64,000 nt of DNA from NCBI RefSeq assembly GCF_022406875.1, contig NZ_CP023018.1, forward strand, positions 903,575 through 967,574, in the 5' to 3' direction. Origin of the DNA: Ectothiorhodosinus mongolicus (GTDB lineage: Bacteria; Pseudomonadota; Gammaproteobacteria; Ectothiorhodospirales; Ectothiorhodospiraceae). A model generated the notes under the pieces. The model had not been told where the DNA came from, did not search any database, and worked only from the letters and a program-made list of their open reading frames with translations. Positions 1 through 41,338 of this stretch are shown piece after piece. Each line of letters opens with the position of its first letter. The first letter of the stretch is position 1. Made by a program: the position numbers and the translations under genes.

Positions 1-588
1 TACAATCAAGCCAACTTCCTACTCAGCGCATCACGCCTTTCCGGACTGCCTGAGGACTCTGGATATGAGGTAGCTTTTGCCGGCCGCTCCAATGCAGGCA
101 AATCCAGCGCCATTAATACCTTGTGCCGCCGGCGCGGACTTGCCCGTGCCAGTAAGACACCGGGACGCACGCAATTGATCAATTTTTTTTCGCTAGACGA
201 GGAGCGACGCTTGGTCGACCTCCCGGGCTATGGCTACGCCAAGGTGCCTGAGGAAATCCGTCGCAAGTGGGGCAAACTCATGCGCGACTATTTGGGCAAG
301 CGTGAGTGCCTCAAAGGATTGGTGCTGATCATGGACATTCGCCACCCGCTCACCGAGGGTGACTGGCAGATGCTGCACTGGGCCCAAGAGCACGCACTCG
401 CCATTCACATACTCTTGACCAAGGCCGATAAGCTCAAACGCGGCCCGGCACTTACCACCGCCCATCAAGTGGCTGCTGCCCTCGGCGATGCCGATATCGA
501 AGCCACCGTACAACCCTTTTCCTCTCTCAAGGCCGAGGGCATCGAAGATCTGCACAGCATCTTAGACGCCTGGCTCGGCTGGACTTAA
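1..588 (+). CDS. engB: Ribosome biogenesis GTPase EngB (YihA/YsxC), 5'-truncated
   Basis: EngB is an essential small GTPase that assists late assembly of the 50S ribosomal subunit in the cytoplasm. The reading frame is open from the first base, so the N-terminus lies outside the window; 195 codons are present, near the family's usual 200-210. Visible motifs are the P-loop GRSNAGKSS at about residues 28-36, TPGRTQ (switch I), DLPGYGYAKVP (G3) and TKADK (G4). Its stop codon TAA sits inside a perfect 22-bp inverted repeat. In E. coli the gene is convergent with the small RNA gene spf; here too the region beyond the stop carries minus-strand small-RNA candidates pointing at it. Confidence 0.97.
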   Translation, partial: YNQANFLLSASRLSGLPEDSGYEVAFAGRSNAGKSSAINTLCRRRGLARASKTPGRTQLINFFSLDEERRLVDLPGYGYAKVPEEIRRKWGKLMRDYLGKRECLKGLVLIMDIRHPLTEGDWQMLHWAQEHALAIHILLTKADKLKRGPALTTAHQVAAALGDADIEATVQPFSSLKAEGIEDLHSILDAWLGWT

Positions 589-642: not shown

Positions 643-685
643 AAAAAAAGCCCCGGGGCCATCGGGGGAAGGCCGTATCCGGGGC
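643..685 (-). terminator. Rho-independent terminator of small RNA A
   Basis: On the minus strand GCCCCGG (679-685) pairs with CCGGGGC (650-656), with a secondary GGCC/GGCC pairing inside the loop, followed by seven U (643-649). It points toward the engB 3' end. Confidence 0.8.
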
Positions 686-770
686 AGAGCTTGGCCCGAC
701 TTGAGGGGTAACGGGCCAACCCGCTCAGGGAGGTTAGCGGGGAGCGCCGGGCTACAGCGCTCGAGTACAT
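643..770 (-). ncRNA. Candidate small RNA A (inner copy, C-rich loops)
   Basis: Read on the minus strand this stretch folds into consecutive hairpins and ends in a rho-independent terminator. Stems are 757-761/743-747, 736-741/720-725 (loop AACCTCCCTG), 712-717/693-698 (loop TTACCCCTCAAGT), then the terminator stem 679-685/650-656 followed by seven U. It resembles candidate B in order and sequence, e.g. the shared 11-mer CCCGCTCAGGG at 720-730 and 920-930 on the plus strand. The 5' end is uncertain: I see no sigma-E-like promoter, and a weak CATAAT box near 814 would make the transcript about 170 nt. It may be a degenerate duplicate. Confidence 0.6.
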
Positions 771-816
771 TGGAACATGAAATGACTGAAAAGTGTAGTA
801 ATTTACTCAGGTATTA

Positions 817-854
817 TGGGGTTACTCCACAGAAAACAATGGAGTCGTACCCCA
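817..854. repeat. Imperfect inverted repeat related to 585-632
   Basis: TGGGGTTACTCCA (817-829) and TGGAGTCGTACCCCA (840-854) are reverse complements except for a 2-nt deletion in the left arm. The right arm keeps the GTCGTACCCCA core of the repeat at 585-632. The two repeats start 232 bp apart and the two small-RNA terminators start 216 bp apart, which fits tandem duplication of a repeat-plus-small-RNA unit. Confidence 0.65.
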
Positions 855-858
855 GTGT

Positions 859-887
859 AAAAAAAGCCCCGGCCAAAAGACCGGGGC
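859..887 (-). terminator. Rho-independent terminator of small RNA B
   Basis: On the minus strand GCCCCGG (881-887) pairs with CCGGGGC (866-872) across a short loop, followed by seven U (859-865). It is a canonical strong terminator. Confidence 0.9.
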
Positions 888-963
888 AATCTTGGGCTCG
901 ACTTGGGGAGTCAGAGCAACCCGCTCAGGGGGTAAGCGGGCAGCGCTCAGGGGAGAGCGCTTA
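859..963 (-). ncRNA. Candidate sigma-E-type small RNA B with three C-rich loops (spf/ersA position)
   Basis: The predicted transcript is about 105 nt on the minus strand, starting near 963. Hairpin 1 has a 7-bp stem AGCGCTC/GAGCGCT with loop UCCCCU. Hairpin 2 has stem CCCGCU/AGCGGG with loop UACCCCCUG. Hairpin 3 has stem GCUC(U)GACU/AGUCGAGC with loop CCCCA. A strong terminator follows. The first bases GGGUAAGCG can alternatively pair with CGCUUACCC, giving a second fold. The RNA is convergent to engB, the locus of Spot 42 in E. coli and ErsA in Pseudomonas; homology to either is inferred from position, promoter type and architecture, not from alignment. The segment CUCCCCAAG is complementary to the porin Shine-Dalgarno region at 1227-1235. 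Confidence 0.72.
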
Positions 964-968
964 CCCGT

Positions 969-995
969 TATGACTCTAGTGCAAAAACAAAGTTC
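969..995 (-). promoter_or_regulatory. Sigma-E/AlgU-like promoter of small RNA B
   Basis: On the minus strand GAACTT (990-995) lies 16 nt upstream of TCATA (969-973). This matches the extracytoplasmic sigma factor pattern GAACTT-N16/17-TCtgA of RpoE/AlgU. The predicted start, near 962-964, lies just before hairpin 1. Confidence 0.7.
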
Positions 996-1211: not shown

Positions 1212-1244
1212 TTGATTTCACTTGACCTTGGGGAGCACCCTGTA

Positions 1245-2294
1245 ATGAAACGTAAACTACTGCTTGCAGCAATGATCTCTGCGGGTATGGCCATGCCGGC
1301 CATGGCCGACACCACACTTTATGGCCGCGCCAATCTGTCGGTTGATTACTTGGACGACGGCAAAGACTATTCGGAAGTCAACGTCTCGAGTAACTCCAGC
1401 CGCTTGGGCTTCAAAGGCGAGCGCGACTTTGGTGTCGTTACCGGCATTTTCCAGATCGAAGGCGAAATTTTATTTGACACGGGCAGTGACAACACGGACA
1501 TCTCTAGCCGCGATACTTTTGCAGGCATTAAAGGTGACTGGGGCATGCTGCGTATTGGCAAGTTCGACACGCCCTTCAAGAGGGCTCGCGGTCCTGCCAA
1601 TTTCTTTGGTGACATCGTTGGTGACATGCGCAACTTAGCTCGGACCACCGACTTTGGCCGCTTCGATGAGCGCTTTAAGAACAGCATTCATTATCGCAGC
1701 CCCTCGATGAGCGGTTTGGTGCTTGATTTGCAGTACTCCCCAGAAACCAGTGACGCCGATACTAGTGATGGAAACAAGCGTTCGGCCGTCAGCACGTCTC
1801 TAAGCTATAGCAGCGGCCCCTTCCGCGCAGCCCTGGCTTTCGAGCAGCAGGGTATCACCGCTACTAGTATGGATGACTTCACAGCTGATGCCATCCGTCT
1901 TGCTGCCTCCTATCGAGTTAGTAGCGATCTCACTTTGGGTGGCTTCTATCAGCAATCAGAGCGCACTCGTGACGTCACTACCGCCACCAAAGGTGATAAG
2001 GCCGATGTCTATGGTTTTGGTGGTCAATACCGCTTGAGCCCAGCGTGGTTCTTGAATGCACACTACTTCACGCTGAAAGCCGACAACTTAAACGATAAAG
2101 ATGCGGATCTTTATGCGGTTGGCGTTGAGTATCGCGTCGACCGCAATCTGCGCTTCTACGGTGTTTACGCTGCCACCAGCAATGACGGCGGCTCGAGCCT
2201 GACTTCATGGTCTGCTGCCCGCAGCGCCACACCCTCCGGCGCTGCTGGTCAGACTGCAAGTGCTCTATCAGCTGGAATGCGTTTGGACTTCTAA
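1245..2294 (+). CDS. Gram-negative general porin (OmpC/Porin_4 type)
   Basis: The product is an outer-membrane trimeric porin for small hydrophilic solutes. The 349-residue precursor begins with a signal peptide MKRKLLLAAMISAGMAM... cleaved after PAMA, followed by DTTLYGRANLSVDY, the typical first beta-strand. It has alternating amphipathic strands and ends in the terminal phenylalanine (RLDF) needed by the BAM machinery. I chose the ATG at 1245 because GGGGAG lies 9 nt upstream and a signal peptide follows; an upstream TTG would add 11 residues before it. The Shine-Dalgarno context CTTGGGGAG is the exact complement of a loop in small RNA B. No Pho box is visible, so a phosphate role is not indicated. 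Substrate preference is unknown. Confidence 0.93.
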   Translation: MKRKLLLAAMISAGMAMPAMADTTLYGRANLSVDYLDDGKDYSEVNVSSNSSRLGFKGERDFGVVTGIFQIEGEILFDTGSDNTDISSRDTFAGIKGDWGMLRIGKFDTPFKRARGPANFFGDIVGDMRNLARTTDFGRFDERFKNSIHYRSPSMSGLVLDLQYSPETSDADTSDGNKRSAVSTSLSYSSGPFRAALAFEQQGITATSMDDFTADAIRLAASYRVSSDLTLGGFYQQSERTRDVTTATKGDKADVYGFGGQYRLSPAWFLNAHYFTLKADNLNDKDADLYAVGVEYRVDRNLRFYGVYAATSNDGGSSLTSWSAARSATPSGAAGQTASALSAGMRLDF

Positions 2295-2409: not shown

Positions 2410-3201
2410 TCAAGCAGCCTGTTCAAAAACGGGCGTCAACACTTTCTTGGGTGCCTCAAGACGCACGCTTGGCCAATGCAGCAACTCCAGATTGCCATCC
2501 ATATCCTCGGTAATGGCGGTGCAGTGCTCCACCCAGTCGCCGCAATTGGCATAGAGTAAATGTTCGTGCTGGCTGAGCGCCGCCTTGTGGATGTGGCCGC
2601 AAACAAAACCGTCATAGTCCTCCGCTAAAGCCCTGCCCACTGCCGCCTGCTCAAACCGAGCCACATACTCGCGGGCCATGCCCACGCGTCCTTTGATGTG
2701 TGCGGACAATGACCAGTAGGGATAACCCAACTTAGCACGCACGGCATTTAATGGCCGATTCAGGCGCAACAATATCTTGTAAGCGCTGTCACCCAATAAT
2801 CTCGCCAAGCGATTGTGGGTGACCATGCCGTCGAACTCATCGCCATGGCTGACCAACAGGCGCCGCCCACTGAGCGTGGTGTGTTCGGCTCTCTGTTGAA
2901 TATGTATGCCGTGGAACACGCTGCCGATCAGATCACGCACGGCTTCGTCGTGATTGCCCGGAATATAGATGACCCGAGTTCCCTTGCGCGCTTTGTGCAA
3001 GATCGTCTGGATGACGGCGCTGTGCTCACCTTTCCAATGCACGCTGCGACGCATCGACCATAAATCAAAAATATCCCCCACGAGGTAGAGATAGTCGGAC
3101 TCGGTGTGGCGCAAAAACTCGAGAAGGTAATCTGCTCGACAGGCAGCAGAGCCCAGGTGGAAGTCGGAAATAAAGATACTGCGGCGGTCTAGGGTTTGCA
3201 T
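2410..3201 (-). CDS. plcP: PlcP-like metallophosphoesterase (LpxH-related, COG2908 type)
   Basis: This 263-residue cytoplasmic calcineurin-like phosphoesterase has all metal-binding motifs: DFHLG (about 13-17), GDIFD (43-47), GNHDE (83-87), HGDEFD (119-124) and GHIH (203-206). Databases often call such proteins UDP-2,3-diacylglucosamine hydrolase. However, the DFHLGS start, the YWSLSAHIK segment and the tail CGDWVEHCTA resemble PlcP, the phospholipase C-type enzyme that releases the headgroup phosphate of phospholipids during phosphorus starvation. It is divergent from a GT4 glycosyltransferase and near the pho/pst genes, which supports PlcP over LpxH. ATG 3201 is preferred to an adjacent GTG because GAGGG is spaced 7 nt away. 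PlcP is an inference; LpxH remains the alternative. Confidence 0.72.
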   Translation of the reverse strand: MQTLDRRSIFISDFHLGSAACRADYLLEFLRHTESDYLYLVGDIFDLWSMRRSVHWKGEHSAVIQTILHKARKGTRVIYIPGNHDEAVRDLIGSVFHGIHIQQRAEHTTLSGRRLLVSHGDEFDGMVTHNRLARLLGDSAYKILLRLNRPLNAVRAKLGYPYWSLSAHIKGRVGMAREYVARFEQAAVGRALAEDYDGFVCGHIHKAALSQHEHLLYANCGDWVEHCTAITEDMDGNLELLHWPSVRLEAPKKVLTPVFEQAA

Positions 3202-3232
3202 CACACAACCCTCATCTGATGGGCTTGTCGCT

Positions 3233-4381
3233 ATGGTGACTGAGACCTACCCCCCGGAGATCAACGGGGTCGCCAAGACTTTGCAGCAGATGGTGGTCGG
3301 CATGCTCGATCGCGGTCATGCAGTGCAGCTGATTCGCCCCGGTCAGGGCGCCGATGACCACGGTAACCGAACGCATGCCTTTGACGCCGAAGAAATCATT
3401 GTTCCCGGCGCGCCGCTACCGGGCTACAACGGCCTGCGCTTCGGGCTTTGGTGCAAGCGCCGCCTGCTTCGCCATTGGTCGGCGATTAGGCCGAACATTA
3501 TTTATGTAGCGACCGAGGGACTCCTCGGCCATTCCGCTATGGCTGCCGCCCGCGACTTGGATATTCCGGTGATCACCGGGTTTCATACGCAGTTTGATCA
3601 CTACAGCCGACATTACCACCTAGGGCTTTTAGAGCCGGCGATACGCCGCGTGCTGCGACGCTTTCACAATCGCGCGGAATGCACACTCGTGCCAACGCAA
3701 GACCTGCGCAAGAAACTTGAGCATCAGGGCTTTGGCAAGTGCCGAGTGATGTCCCGCGGTGTGGACATCCGCTTGTTTAGCCCGGAGCGTCGCGACCCTG
3801 CTTTGCGCGCCGAGTGGGGCCTCGGTGATCAAGACATCGCTTTGATTCATGTGGGTCGGCTTGCGCCTGAGAAAAATCTCCCGCTGGTGATCAAAGCGTT
3901 TGAAGCTTTCCGTCAGAAATTACCCAATACACGCTGCGTTTTGGTGGGCGATGGTCCGGACCGGGAAAAGCTGCAGCGCGAATATCCTGATGTGGTGTTC
4001 GCCGGCATGCGCACCGGCGAGGATCTGGCTAGGCATTACGCCAGCGGCGATTTATTCCTGTTTCCCTCGGTCACCGACACTTTTGGGAATGTGGTGTTAG
4101 AGGCGATGGCCTCCAGCTTGCCCGTGCTTGCCTTCGACTATGCCGCGCCCAGAGAGCATATTCGCTCGGGAATCAGCGGGTTTTTAGCACCCTATGGTGA
4201 TGCGGCGGCATTTTGCCGAGCCGCGGCCAATCTGGCTGCGCGGGCAGAAATGATCCCCGCTATGGGACGATCGGCCCGCGGCATTGCCGAGGGCTTGGAT
4301 TGGTCAAATGAGTACGACCGACTTGAAGCCCTGTTTCTCTCTTACGTGAGACGTCCTCTGGGTCGCGAGGTAGCCGCATGA
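3233..4381 (+). CDS. GT4 glycosyltransferase, probable Agt-like glycolipid synthase
   Basis: A 382-residue GT-B fold transferase. The N-terminal acceptor domain opens with VTETYPPEINGVAKTL. The C-terminal donor domain has HVGRLAPEKNL, GDGPDREKL and the FPSVTDTFGNVVLEAMA nucleotide-sugar motif with its E-x7-E-like region. Paired with a PlcP-like enzyme, the likely role is transfer of a sugar from a nucleotide-sugar to diacylglycerol, making phosphorus-free glycolipids at the inner membrane (Agt role). The start ATG has no clear Shine-Dalgarno, and only 31 bp separate it from the divergent phosphoesterase start, so the N-terminus is very short before the first motif. It overlaps the next gene by 4 nt (ATGA), indicating translational coupling. 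The sugar and acceptor cannot be read from the sequence. Confidence 0.8.
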   Translation: MVTETYPPEINGVAKTLQQMVVGMLDRGHAVQLIRPGQGADDHGNRTHAFDAEEIIVPGAPLPGYNGLRFGLWCKRRLLRHWSAIRPNIIYVATEGLLGHSAMAAARDLDIPVITGFHTQFDHYSRHYHLGLLEPAIRRVLRRFHNRAECTLVPTQDLRKKLEHQGFGKCRVMSRGVDIRLFSPERRDPALRAEWGLGDQDIALIHVGRLAPEKNLPLVIKAFEAFRQKLPNTRCVLVGDGPDREKLQREYPDVVFAGMRTGEDLARHYASGDLFLFPSVTDTFGNVVLEAMASSLPVLAFDYAAPREHIRSGISGFLAPYGDAAAFCRAAANLAARAEMIPAMGRSARGIAEGLDWSNEYDRLEALFLSYVRRPLGREVAA

Positions 4382-40078: not shown

Positions 40079-41338
40079 ATGCAGAAAAAGCGTTCATTCA
40101 AACTCGCGCCACTGGCAGGCGCGGTGGGGCTGGTATTTGCCGGCGCGCAGGTCAGTACCGCTAACGAGCTGGATTTGGATATTTCACTGATCATCGATGC
40201 GGTGTACTTCAACACCTTAAGCACAGGCAATGAATCCCCGGCAGGCTTCAGTAGCGGGCATCACCATCATGGCCATAGCCATGATCACGGCCACGGTCAC
40301 AGCCATGGTTTTGATGAAGGCTTCAACATGGGGCACTCGGAAATCTCTATCGAAGGCACCCTCGGCGGCGCCCTAAAAGGCGTCCTGATGCTCGGCTTTA
40401 ACGATAAAGAAGTGGAAGTCGAGGAAGCTTATCTGCAGACCTTAGGACTACCCAATGGCTTGCAGCTGAAAGCGGGTAAGTTCCTCTCGGGCATTGGCTA
40501 CATCAACAGCCAGCACGGACATGATTGGGACTTCGTGGATCGTCCGCTGTTGAACGAGTATCTGTTTGGCGATCATGGCCTGCAGGAAACCGGCATTCAG
40601 GCCACTTGGTTGGCCCCCACTGATACCTACACTTTGTTTGGCCTTGAGCTCTTGCAGGGCGAAACCAGTGGTGTGGCCAACTACATCGGCTCGCAAGGTG
40701 ATGGACGCATCCTCAAAGACGTCAGCGGCCCCCGCCTGGTTACGGGCTTCGTGAAATTTGCCCCTGATTTGGGCGATGCCAACGCCGCTCAATTCGGACT
40801 TTCCGGCGGCTATGCTCGCAGTTATCAAAATACCCGTGAGCATTCGTTGCGCAATGAGGACTGGGATGGCACGGCTTGGTTTGCTGGCGTTGACGGCGTA
40901 TTCAAGCACGATGCTGGCCGCAGCTATGGCCATGGCGATTGGCGTTTGCAAGGTGAGTATTTTTATCGTGCGCAGGATGTGGACCGTCGCGATGTGGCAT
41001 TCGAGGGGAGTGCGGTGTCCAATGTTCAAAGTTTCACCAACAAACAAGATGGACTCTACATCCAAGGGGTTTATGGCATCGCTCCTCGTTGGGAAGCTGG
41101 CTTGCGCGCCGAGGCGCTGGGCTTTACCAATAAAGTCGGTCGAGGAGACGGTAAAACTGAAGATACATCCTACCGCTACAGTGCTCAGCTGACTTTCCGC
41201 CCCATGGAGCCGGTGTTCCTGAGGGCGCAGCTCAGCAGTATCGACTTTGCCGATGACGACCACAGCCACGGCAATGGCTTGGAATTCATGTTGCAACTGA
41301 ATGTGGCTCTGGGTGCGCATGGCGCACATCGCTTCTGA
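40079..41338 (+). CDS. Histidine-rich outer-membrane beta-barrel, putative zinc porin
   Basis: A 419-residue precursor with a signal peptide ending VSTA (about residue 28), a long run of amphipathic beta-strands and a terminal Phe (AHRF), as in porin-like barrels. A His-rich segment (residues 61-76, HHHHGHSHDHGHGHSHG) lies after the first strand, probably surface- or pore-exposed. More His occur in SQHGHDWD and DDDHSHGNG. Placed behind a Zur-like operator and upstream of ZnuA/C/B-like genes, it is a candidate zinc-scavenging outer-membrane channel for zinc-limited growth. No TonB box or plug domain is visible, so a TonB receptor is unlikely. The Shine-Dalgarno context CTTGGGGA matches that of the porin at 1245. 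Confidence 0.82.
   Translation: MQKKRSFKLAPLAGAVGLVFAGAQVSTANELDLDISLIIDAVYFNTLSTGNESPAGFSSGHHHHGHSHDHGHGHSHGFDEGFNMGHSEISIEGTLGGALKGVLMLGFNDKEVEVEEAYLQTLGLPNGLQLKAGKFLSGIGYINSQHGHDWDFVDRPLLNEYLFGDHGLQETGIQATWLAPTDTYTLFGLELLQGETSGVANYIGSQGDGRILKDVSGPRLVTGFVKFAPDLGDANAAQFGLSGGYARSYQNTREHSLRNEDWDGTAWFAGVDGVFKHDAGRSYGHGDWRLQGEYFYRAQDVDRRDVAFEGSAVSNVQSFTNKQDGLYIQGVYGIAPRWEAGLRAEALGFTNKVGRGDGKTEDTSYRYSAQLTFRPMEPVFLRAQLSSIDFADDDHSHGNGLEFMLQLNVALGAHGAHRF

Follow-up and report, generated by a model that had tools for sequence, protein, structure and literature searches.

Two paralogous C-rich small RNA genes convergent to engB in Ectothiorhodosinus mongolicus: homologues of anti-hemB with a sigmaE-type promoter motif and a predicted porin target

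In many proteobacteria the surroundings of engB harbour a small RNA, and the sequence of Ectothiorhodosinus mongolicus raises the question of why two related units should be found there, what they are and what they might control. The material analysed here (referred to as the window) is a stretch of 64,000 nucleotides of DNA from this bacterium. Both are minus-strand units in the gap that separates engB, which ends at 588 on the plus strand, from a porin gene whose ATG is at 1245, also on the plus strand. The original prediction described them as related units of about three hairpins each, with C-rich loops and a GC terminator stem followed by seven U, and direct reading of the sequence confirmed this architecture, as well as their convergence to engB, towards whose end both units run. 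The features of the locus are as follows (R2 is a covariance model introduced below).

1-588, plus strand: engB (TIGR03598, 240.8 bits), its 5' end cut off by the border of the window; both RNAs run towards it
585-632, no strand assigned: REP-like perfect palindrome (two arms of 23 nt), reaching from the stop of engB almost to the inner terminator
643-762, minus strand: inner small RNA, about 120 nt (sequence reading; folding; RF02837, 47.3 bits; R2, 97.1 bits, E 4.8e-19)
762-742, minus strand: inner hairpin 1
741-720, minus strand: inner hairpin 2, loop AACCUCCCUG
719-691, minus strand: inner hairpin 3, loop UUACCCCUCAAGU
685-650, minus strand: inner terminator, GC stem with an extra C-rich loop, then seven U (649-643)
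769-796, minus strand: degenerate counterpart of the promoter motif at the inner RNA, ACACTT-N16-TCCAAT
838-854, no strand assigned: further REP-like repeat copy, directly past the terminator of the outer RNA
859-962, minus strand: outer small RNA, about 104 nt (sequence reading; folding; RF02837, 47.5 bits; R2, 69.9 bits, E 5.1e-13)
960-943, minus strand: outer hairpin 1, loop UCCCCU (949-954)
940-920, minus strand: outer hairpin 2, loop UACCCCCUG
917-896, minus strand: outer hairpin 3, loop CCCCA within GACUCCCCAAGUC, exposing CUCCCCAAG
887-866, minus strand: outer terminator, GC stem, then seven U (865-859)
968-995, minus strand: promoter motif at the outer RNA, of sigmaE/AlgU type, GAACTT (995-990), N16, TCATAA (973-968), 11 nt before hairpin 1
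1227-1235, plus strand: Shine-Dalgarno region of the porin gene, CTTGGGGAG, perfectly complementary to CUCCCCAAG in outer hairpin 3
1245-2294, plus strand: porin gene (Pfam Porin_4, E 4.1e-45), in the place that polA occupies in most congeners; predicted target

Folding of both units was examined against shuffled sequences. The segment 860-975 reached -58 kcal/mol (z -6.3) and the segment 644-785 reached -60.6 kcal/mol (z -4.0), and in neither case was any of the 200 shuffles as stable; a shorter inner stretch (644-748), in which the first inner hairpin is cut, gave z -2.4, with 2 of 200 shuffles as stable. The two units share 56% identity overall, with two exact 14-nt repeats in common. Two mechanical reading frames, of 61 and 115 aa, cross them. 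The palindrome at 585-632 and the copy at 838-854 are parts of a dispersed repeat and lie outside the RNAs proper: the pattern TGGGGTCGTACCCCA (at most two mismatches) occurs at 116 and 121 places of the genome on the two strands, compared with 5 and 6 for a control pattern. A copy of this repeat adjoins each of the two RNA terminators.

As regards the transcribed strand, we give next to no credence to an RNA read from the opposite strand, whose G-rich loops could bind CsrA. Plus-strand loops would indeed read GGGGA, but the U tracts, the promoter motif and the match to the Rfam family discussed below are all on the minus strand.

The tandem pair beside engB was found in eight of the nine congeneric genomes, the remaining one (G004) having one unit. 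With PolA (DNA polymerase I) as query, polA was located upstream of the units in seven congeners, namely G002-G007 and G009, and was not found near them in G001 and G008. The relatives show the order polA-small RNA-engB, which bears out the earlier assignment of the locus to the position of spf and ersA. In another genus of the family, tandem pairs were also present in G012 and G015, and in G017, G019 and G021 two divergent units are located beside polA, engB being absent from the stretch fetched. The orientation of these divergent pairs (loci L052, L053 and L054) indicates a rearrangement with respect to the tandem order. For comparison, EngB of the window is 69-73% identical to its counterparts in the genus and in G015, and 63% identical to that of the best named genome among the matches listed.

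The units themselves are much better conserved than their surroundings. When compared pairwise with those of eight congeners, the outer and the inner unit of the window showed 76% and 83% identity, respectively (71% and 77% in the multiple alignment), versus 31-48% for the spacer and flanks. These values, together with the covariation of the stems described below, exceed what chance would produce. A tree of 41 units placed the nine outer copies, including that of the window, in one clade (support 99/98) and joined the window's inner copy to its counterpart in G009 (99/95). Each copy thus has its own orthologues, and this grouping implies that the duplication predates the split of these congeners; with the exception of G004, both copies have been kept since.

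To which family do these RNAs belong? At the Rfam gathering score there was no match in the 64-kb window. With permissive thresholds, RF02837 (anti-hemB) aligned over its whole length (model positions 1-81) to the outer and the inner unit, with 47.5 and 47.3 bits (E 4.9e-10 and 5.5e-10), both narrowly missing the curated cut-off of 49.5 bits. The layout of this family, i.e. a CCCGC-(C-rich loop)-GCGGG hairpin, a second hairpin and a terminator with a U tract, is present in both units, and the cut-off was passed by the inner copies of G001, G003 and G008 (52.8, 50.6 and 51.0 bits). On these alignments, the window copies are close homologues of anti-hemB, though not filed as RF02837 under the strict cut-off. 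The earlier view of the two units as small-RNA candidates has accordingly changed in one respect: they are two paralogous genes with covarying stems, but they are not without a family, since both match anti-hemB just below its cut-off.

The genomic position points in the same direction. Four betaproteobacterial loci (L127, L132, L133 and L136) carry an RNA convergent to engB, with hemB (porphobilinogen synthase) on its other side; three of these RNAs are over the RF02837 cut-off, and that of L133 was found by R1, a covariance model built from 41 family units and used at E ≤ 0.001. Because of this shared position, the kinship of the window RNAs with anti-hemB is supported by locus as well as by sequence, and the fold is homologous too. 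The differences are that hemB is the other neighbour there, that each of the four loci has one copy, and that the window copies remain just under the cut-off; hemB does not flank the RNAs in the window, where the porin gene is found instead, or in seven of the nine congeners, where polA is.

Anti-hemB is an alternative name of ncS04 of Burkholderia cenocepacia (PMC5688073, PMC4603805). For this RNA of 105 nt, the accessible parts of the same papers report a 3' end determined by RACE, detection by Northern blot and binding to Hfq. Its level was changed in none of the seven tabulated conditions, and membrane stress (20 min of SDS) induced the small RNAs of B. cenocepacia hardly at all, according to the part of PMC5688073 available to us. 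In the accessible portions of the open-access literature we found no target, function or regulator of anti-hemB/ncS04, nor any report of sigmaE control.

In the genome of E. mongolicus, RF02837 gave 10 matches at E ≤ 1, strong only for the two at engB. Of 14 control genomes, 11 gave matches at E ≤ 1 and five did so at E ≤ 0.01, none of them over the cut-off, and for this reason the weak matches were left out. The next-best match (26.6 bits), which is located outside the window (G000:C1:555084-555168, plus strand; L039 2085-2169), is a CU-rich candidate RNA of two hairpins. It is accompanied by a promoter-like sequence, TTGACA-N16-TAGAAT, and precedes a gene resembling purH by eye; its best Rfam match was the Betaproteobacteria toxic sRNA RF02278 (34.3 bits, cut-off 50, E 2.3e-5).

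A wider distribution of the family was revealed by searching the class with R1 (E ≤ 0.001), which matched 113 of 274 genomes, three of them from the family of the window, and gave no match in the other 161. With the same threshold it matched 12 among the 80 named engB loci listed; in one of these (L129) the RNA is not convergent to engB and in another (L059) it is 1.6 kb away from it. We analysed 104 of the 110 non-family genomes with a match (G099, G103, G108, G179, G226 and G273 were omitted). Within 1.5 kb of the RNA, engB was present in 67 of these 104 loci (convergent downstream in 62, with the RNA turned round in five) and polA in 63 (upstream on the same strand in 58); at least one of the two genes was found in 85 loci and neither in 19.

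Conservation of the stems in relatives had been set beforehand as one of the results on which the prediction would stand or fall, and the stems proved to be conserved. In an alignment of 95 distinct units from outside the family, changes on both sides were seen for 24 of 25 stem pairs. In the same units 94.9% of the cells were able to pair, against 72.2% after shuffling and at most 47.5% with slid partners, and a second alignment set, with the family included, gave 95.4% against 82.3% after shuffling; the two alignments (A5 and A6) were made to the covariance model, so that their pair counts lean towards its structure. A second model, R2, was built from non-family units alone, with no row of the window's family, and it nevertheless recognised both window units with the scores listed above. 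A further R2 match, at position 41313 of the window (22 bits), was rejected, as it overlaps coding frames. We conclude that the two small RNAs are real, paralogous and well conserved, that they belong to a known family, and that they occupy a known small-RNA locus.

Could these units simply be antisense or terminator elements, which shield engB from read-through and do not act in trans? They are convergent to engB and have strong terminators, and the Rfam name anti-hemB itself hints at an antisense role. We nevertheless consider such a function highly improbable, given that the inner unit stops 54 nt beyond the engB stop, neither unit overlaps engB or the porin gene, hairpins 1-3 covary, and a promoter motif precedes the RNA in most of the class loci.

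Duplication of the RNA was not confined to the genus. Arrays of five tandem copies (L249 of G297, 3062-3801, plus strand) and four tandem copies (L182 of G206, 3050-3801, minus strand) were found beside polA, and three tandem copies in L250 (G276), the third with only 20.3 bits. L181, L221, L229, L231 and L251 have two copies each; both engB and polA are missing from view in L229 and L231. Most copies in the arrays of L249 and L182 have their own GAACT- or AAACT-type element. The duplicated pair had originally been regarded as an unfamiliar form at this locus, and this requires some qualification, as a second RNA in the gap between spf and engB is known: in Vibrionaceae, Spot 42 and VSsrna24 share one polA-engB intergenic region (PMC3295665). 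VSsrna24 (about 60 nt) is not termed a paralogue in the accessible text of that paper, and this system differs from the present one in the size of VSsrna24 and in its control by glucose and cAMP. In Shewanella marisflavi (L119, 4207-4299, minus strand) we noted a second C-rich hairpin unit (CUCCCCAA) in the Spot 42-engB gap, with an R2 score of 20.1 bits, which recalls VSsrna24.

The sequences upstream of the units provided information on their probable control. The motif at the outer RNA (GAACTT-N16-TCATAA) has only a drifted counterpart at the inner RNA of the window, and the congeners have GAACTT, GAACTA, GAACCA or GAACCC in that place. In the family, GAACT followed by one base plus 16-17 and TC was found 10-12 nt before hairpin 1 in 33 of 43 units, compared with 0.18 in shuffles that preserve base composition alone; the search covered 45 nt upstream, and the 43 units include the near-identical L018, L019 and L020 and the misplaced starts of L053 and L054. 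In the class, the strict form (GAACT-N17-TC, 8-14 nt before hairpin 1) was present in 63 of 104 best units (0.05 in shuffles of the same kind) and a loose form (GAACT, AAACT or GAACC) in 79 of 104 (0.43 in shuffles). Ordinary 45-nt windows of the same loci, with the true sites left in, contained the strict form in 22 and the loose form in 80 of 21,586 cases. The loose motif was missing at the set distance in 25 of the 104 loci, and anywhere in the 45 nt in 15.

Base counts over the class read GAACTTT...GTCTNA, which we take to be the sigmaE/AlgU promoter type. Since the motif lies outside the covariance model, the hits were not selected by it, and it constitutes independent evidence that transcription would start there. 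The genome of E. mongolicus encodes both RpoE (301.5 bits) and Hfq (98.6 bits). The features that mark a small RNA of the sigmaE regulon, an RpoE gene and an RpoE-type promoter, are therefore found together in this bacterium, the latter as a motif and at the outer copy only; no motif of the GAACTT-N16-TC type was detected upstream of rpoE itself.

This result bears on the comparison with Spot 42 and ErsA that was drawn at the outset. The shared locus stands, and the promoter motif, in pointing to sigmaE, brings the window RNAs closer to ErsA than to Spot 42. An arrangement of the Spot 42 type, in which the RNAs would serve carbon-source control via CRP and not envelope stress, appears to us a slim chance. 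Spot 42 occupies the same locus, its model (RF00021) gave 17.9 bits to the outer unit, and an unfiltered R2 search of ten loci fell on Spot 42 in six of the seven having it (12.7-17.9 bits), so that kinship is only a possibility at the level of sequence. The cut-off of RF00021 is, however, 80 bits, far above the score reached, and the promoter motif points to sigmaE.

ErsA of Pseudomonas (RF01719) is induced by sigma22, has its gene flanked by polA and engB, and acts with Hfq to repress the porin gene oprD, as described in the accessible part of PMC8575079. Its position is the same as that of the window RNAs, and its envelope-stress sigma factor, Hfq and porin repression are features which are predicted here; on the side of the promoter, the likeness consists in the motif of the outer copy alone. 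RF01719 was not among the 21 Rfam matches to the window units up to E 5. R2 matched the place of ErsA in all 11 Pseudomonas engB loci (18.9-33.2 bits; ten with E between 7e-5 and 7e-3, one with 0.098). Scores of similar size occurred elsewhere, in L076 (25.1 bits, 1.8 kb from engB) and at the rejected coding position of the window, and position therefore counts as much as score in this comparison, which suggests that ErsA is a distant relative of the window RNAs.

Two other groups of RNAs resemble the pair. MicA, RybB and similar RNAs combine a sigmaE promoter, Hfq and the repression of outer-membrane protein synthesis; they belong to other sequence families and loci, and the likeness to the window RNAs lies in predicted features. 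The other is sX13 of Xanthomonadaceae (RF02232), also encoded beside polA, which has three stems with apical C-rich loops, seen in the window units as well; through these loops it represses mRNAs that carry a G-rich motif close to their start, according to the available text of PMC3771888. In contrast to the Hfq-type action proposed here, sX13 acts without Hfq (same source), and its model gave 15.4 bits to the window units, short of the cut-off of 50.

What, then, might the C-rich loops recognise? The sequence CTTGGGGAG, complementary to outer hairpin 3, is situated nine nt before the porin ATG. We read 24 porin starts, among which there were nine orthologues (at least 57% identical, that of the window included; a partial match in G004 was left out). 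Six of the nine contain CTTGGGGAG: besides the window, the orthologues of G003, G005, G006, G007 and G009 (57-66% identical) have it in the same place, surrounded by differing sequence. The orthologue of G002 has an imperfect version, CCGGGGAG, and those of G017 and G019 have no such site. As the outer loops of the congeners contain five C versus four G in the site, pairing beyond the core would require a bulge. Duplex energies calculated for the whole-length RNA and porin leader were set aside, because they ignore the fold of each molecule.

More distant porins have mostly another leader, often GCAGAGGA. Porins of the genus in L300, L301, L304-L308, L310 and L317 share this leader at the Shine-Dalgarno position, where another small RNA may perhaps bind.

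In the ten congeneric genomes, the 9-mer with an ATG 3-13 nt downstream occurred at 35 places, 30 of which were fetched. Five of these were porin genes, and the listed site of the G009 porin raises the number to six of ten genomes. Before other Pfam-supported genes the 9-mer was found once each among these 30 places (a solute-binding protein, a B12-binding regulator, a redoxin and a response-regulator frame), and no Pfam-supported gene except the porin recurred. In the genome of E. mongolicus, TTGGGGAG precedes the ATG of a phosphoribulokinase-family gene and of a solute-binding protein gene, and in 14 genomes TTGGGGGAG was found before an ATG at 92 places in 13 of them. From these 92 places 30 loci were read and five frames of at least 100 aa were scanned with Pfam; many of the sites represent one dispersed repeat. 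For two Pfam-supported frames, the B12-binding regulator of G006 and a SpoU-family methylase of G012, an identical site string was also listed in a second genome (G007 and G015, respectively). The B12-binding regulator has CTTGGGGAG in G001 and TTGGGGGAG, with five G, in G006, in both cases at the ribosome-binding site (the proteins are 54% identical), and is a possible second target. Its gene was placed as follows.

L324, 1518-2459, plus strand, and L284, 517-1503, minus strand: B12-binding regulator gene, site CTTGGGGAG or TTGGGGGAG

C-rich loops partly match any strong Shine-Dalgarno sequence, and the porin match was noticed post hoc. One might thus propose that the RNAs are members of the same family whose main targets are other mRNAs (of metabolism, transport or regulators), the porin match being that of a mere strong Shine-Dalgarno sequence beside the locus. 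The sites before the phosphoribulokinase-family and solute-binding protein genes and before the B12-binding regulator of two congeners would fit this explanation, as would the lack of response of ncS04 to the tabulated conditions (PMC5688073, available part) and the fact that, among the eight porin orthologues outside E. mongolicus whose start was read, two lack the site and one has it in imperfect form. We consider it a serious but rather unlikely alternative: the exact 9-mer recurs before the porin alone among the Pfam-supported genes at the 30 of 35 places fetched, and the sigma22-driven ErsA is a known repressor of a porin (PMC8575079, accessible part). The porin mRNA is the best-supported of the predicted targets.

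Taken together, the data lead us to favour, as the probable explanation, two paralogous and separately transcribed trans-acting RNAs of the Hfq type, the outer of which would be driven by sigmaE and would repress the porin gene by pairing with its Shine-Dalgarno sequence. Under envelope stress, RpoE would transcribe the outer RNA and Hfq would hold it; the loop of its third hairpin would then cover the ribosome-binding site CTTGGGGAG of the porin mRNA, block translation and thereby lower the amount of porin. The remaining C-rich loops would be available for further mRNAs with G-rich ribosome-binding sites. The inner copy has the same fold and C-rich loops, with other loop sequences and a drifted promoter, which makes other targets or conditions probable and suggests a division of labour between the two RNAs.

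With regard to the origin of the family, we put forward, as a tentative scenario which is somewhat less likely true than false, that one sigmaE-driven, porin-repressing C-rich RNA was already present at engB in the common ancestor of beta- and gammaproteobacteria and has resided there ever since. Its descendants would include anti-hemB and ErsA, perhaps also Spot 42, with promoters rewired in some lineages, and repeated duplication would have produced up to five copies, most of them keeping their own motif.

To conclude, four elements of this analysis are new, in that we found no account of them in the open-access literature: the existence of the pair, its promoter motif of sigmaE type, the porin site that some members of the genus retain, and the wide spread of a family in which duplication has recurred. 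A conserved sigmaE-type promoter and a porin site would suggest a regulator and a function for anti-hemB and would tie it to ErsA. The accessible text of the paper on sX13 asks whether RNAs of related structure are encoded at polA in other bacteria (PMC3771888), and this question is now made directly testable. Finally, the duplicated copies are a natural example in which one can follow how paralogous small RNAs drift apart in their promoters and loops.
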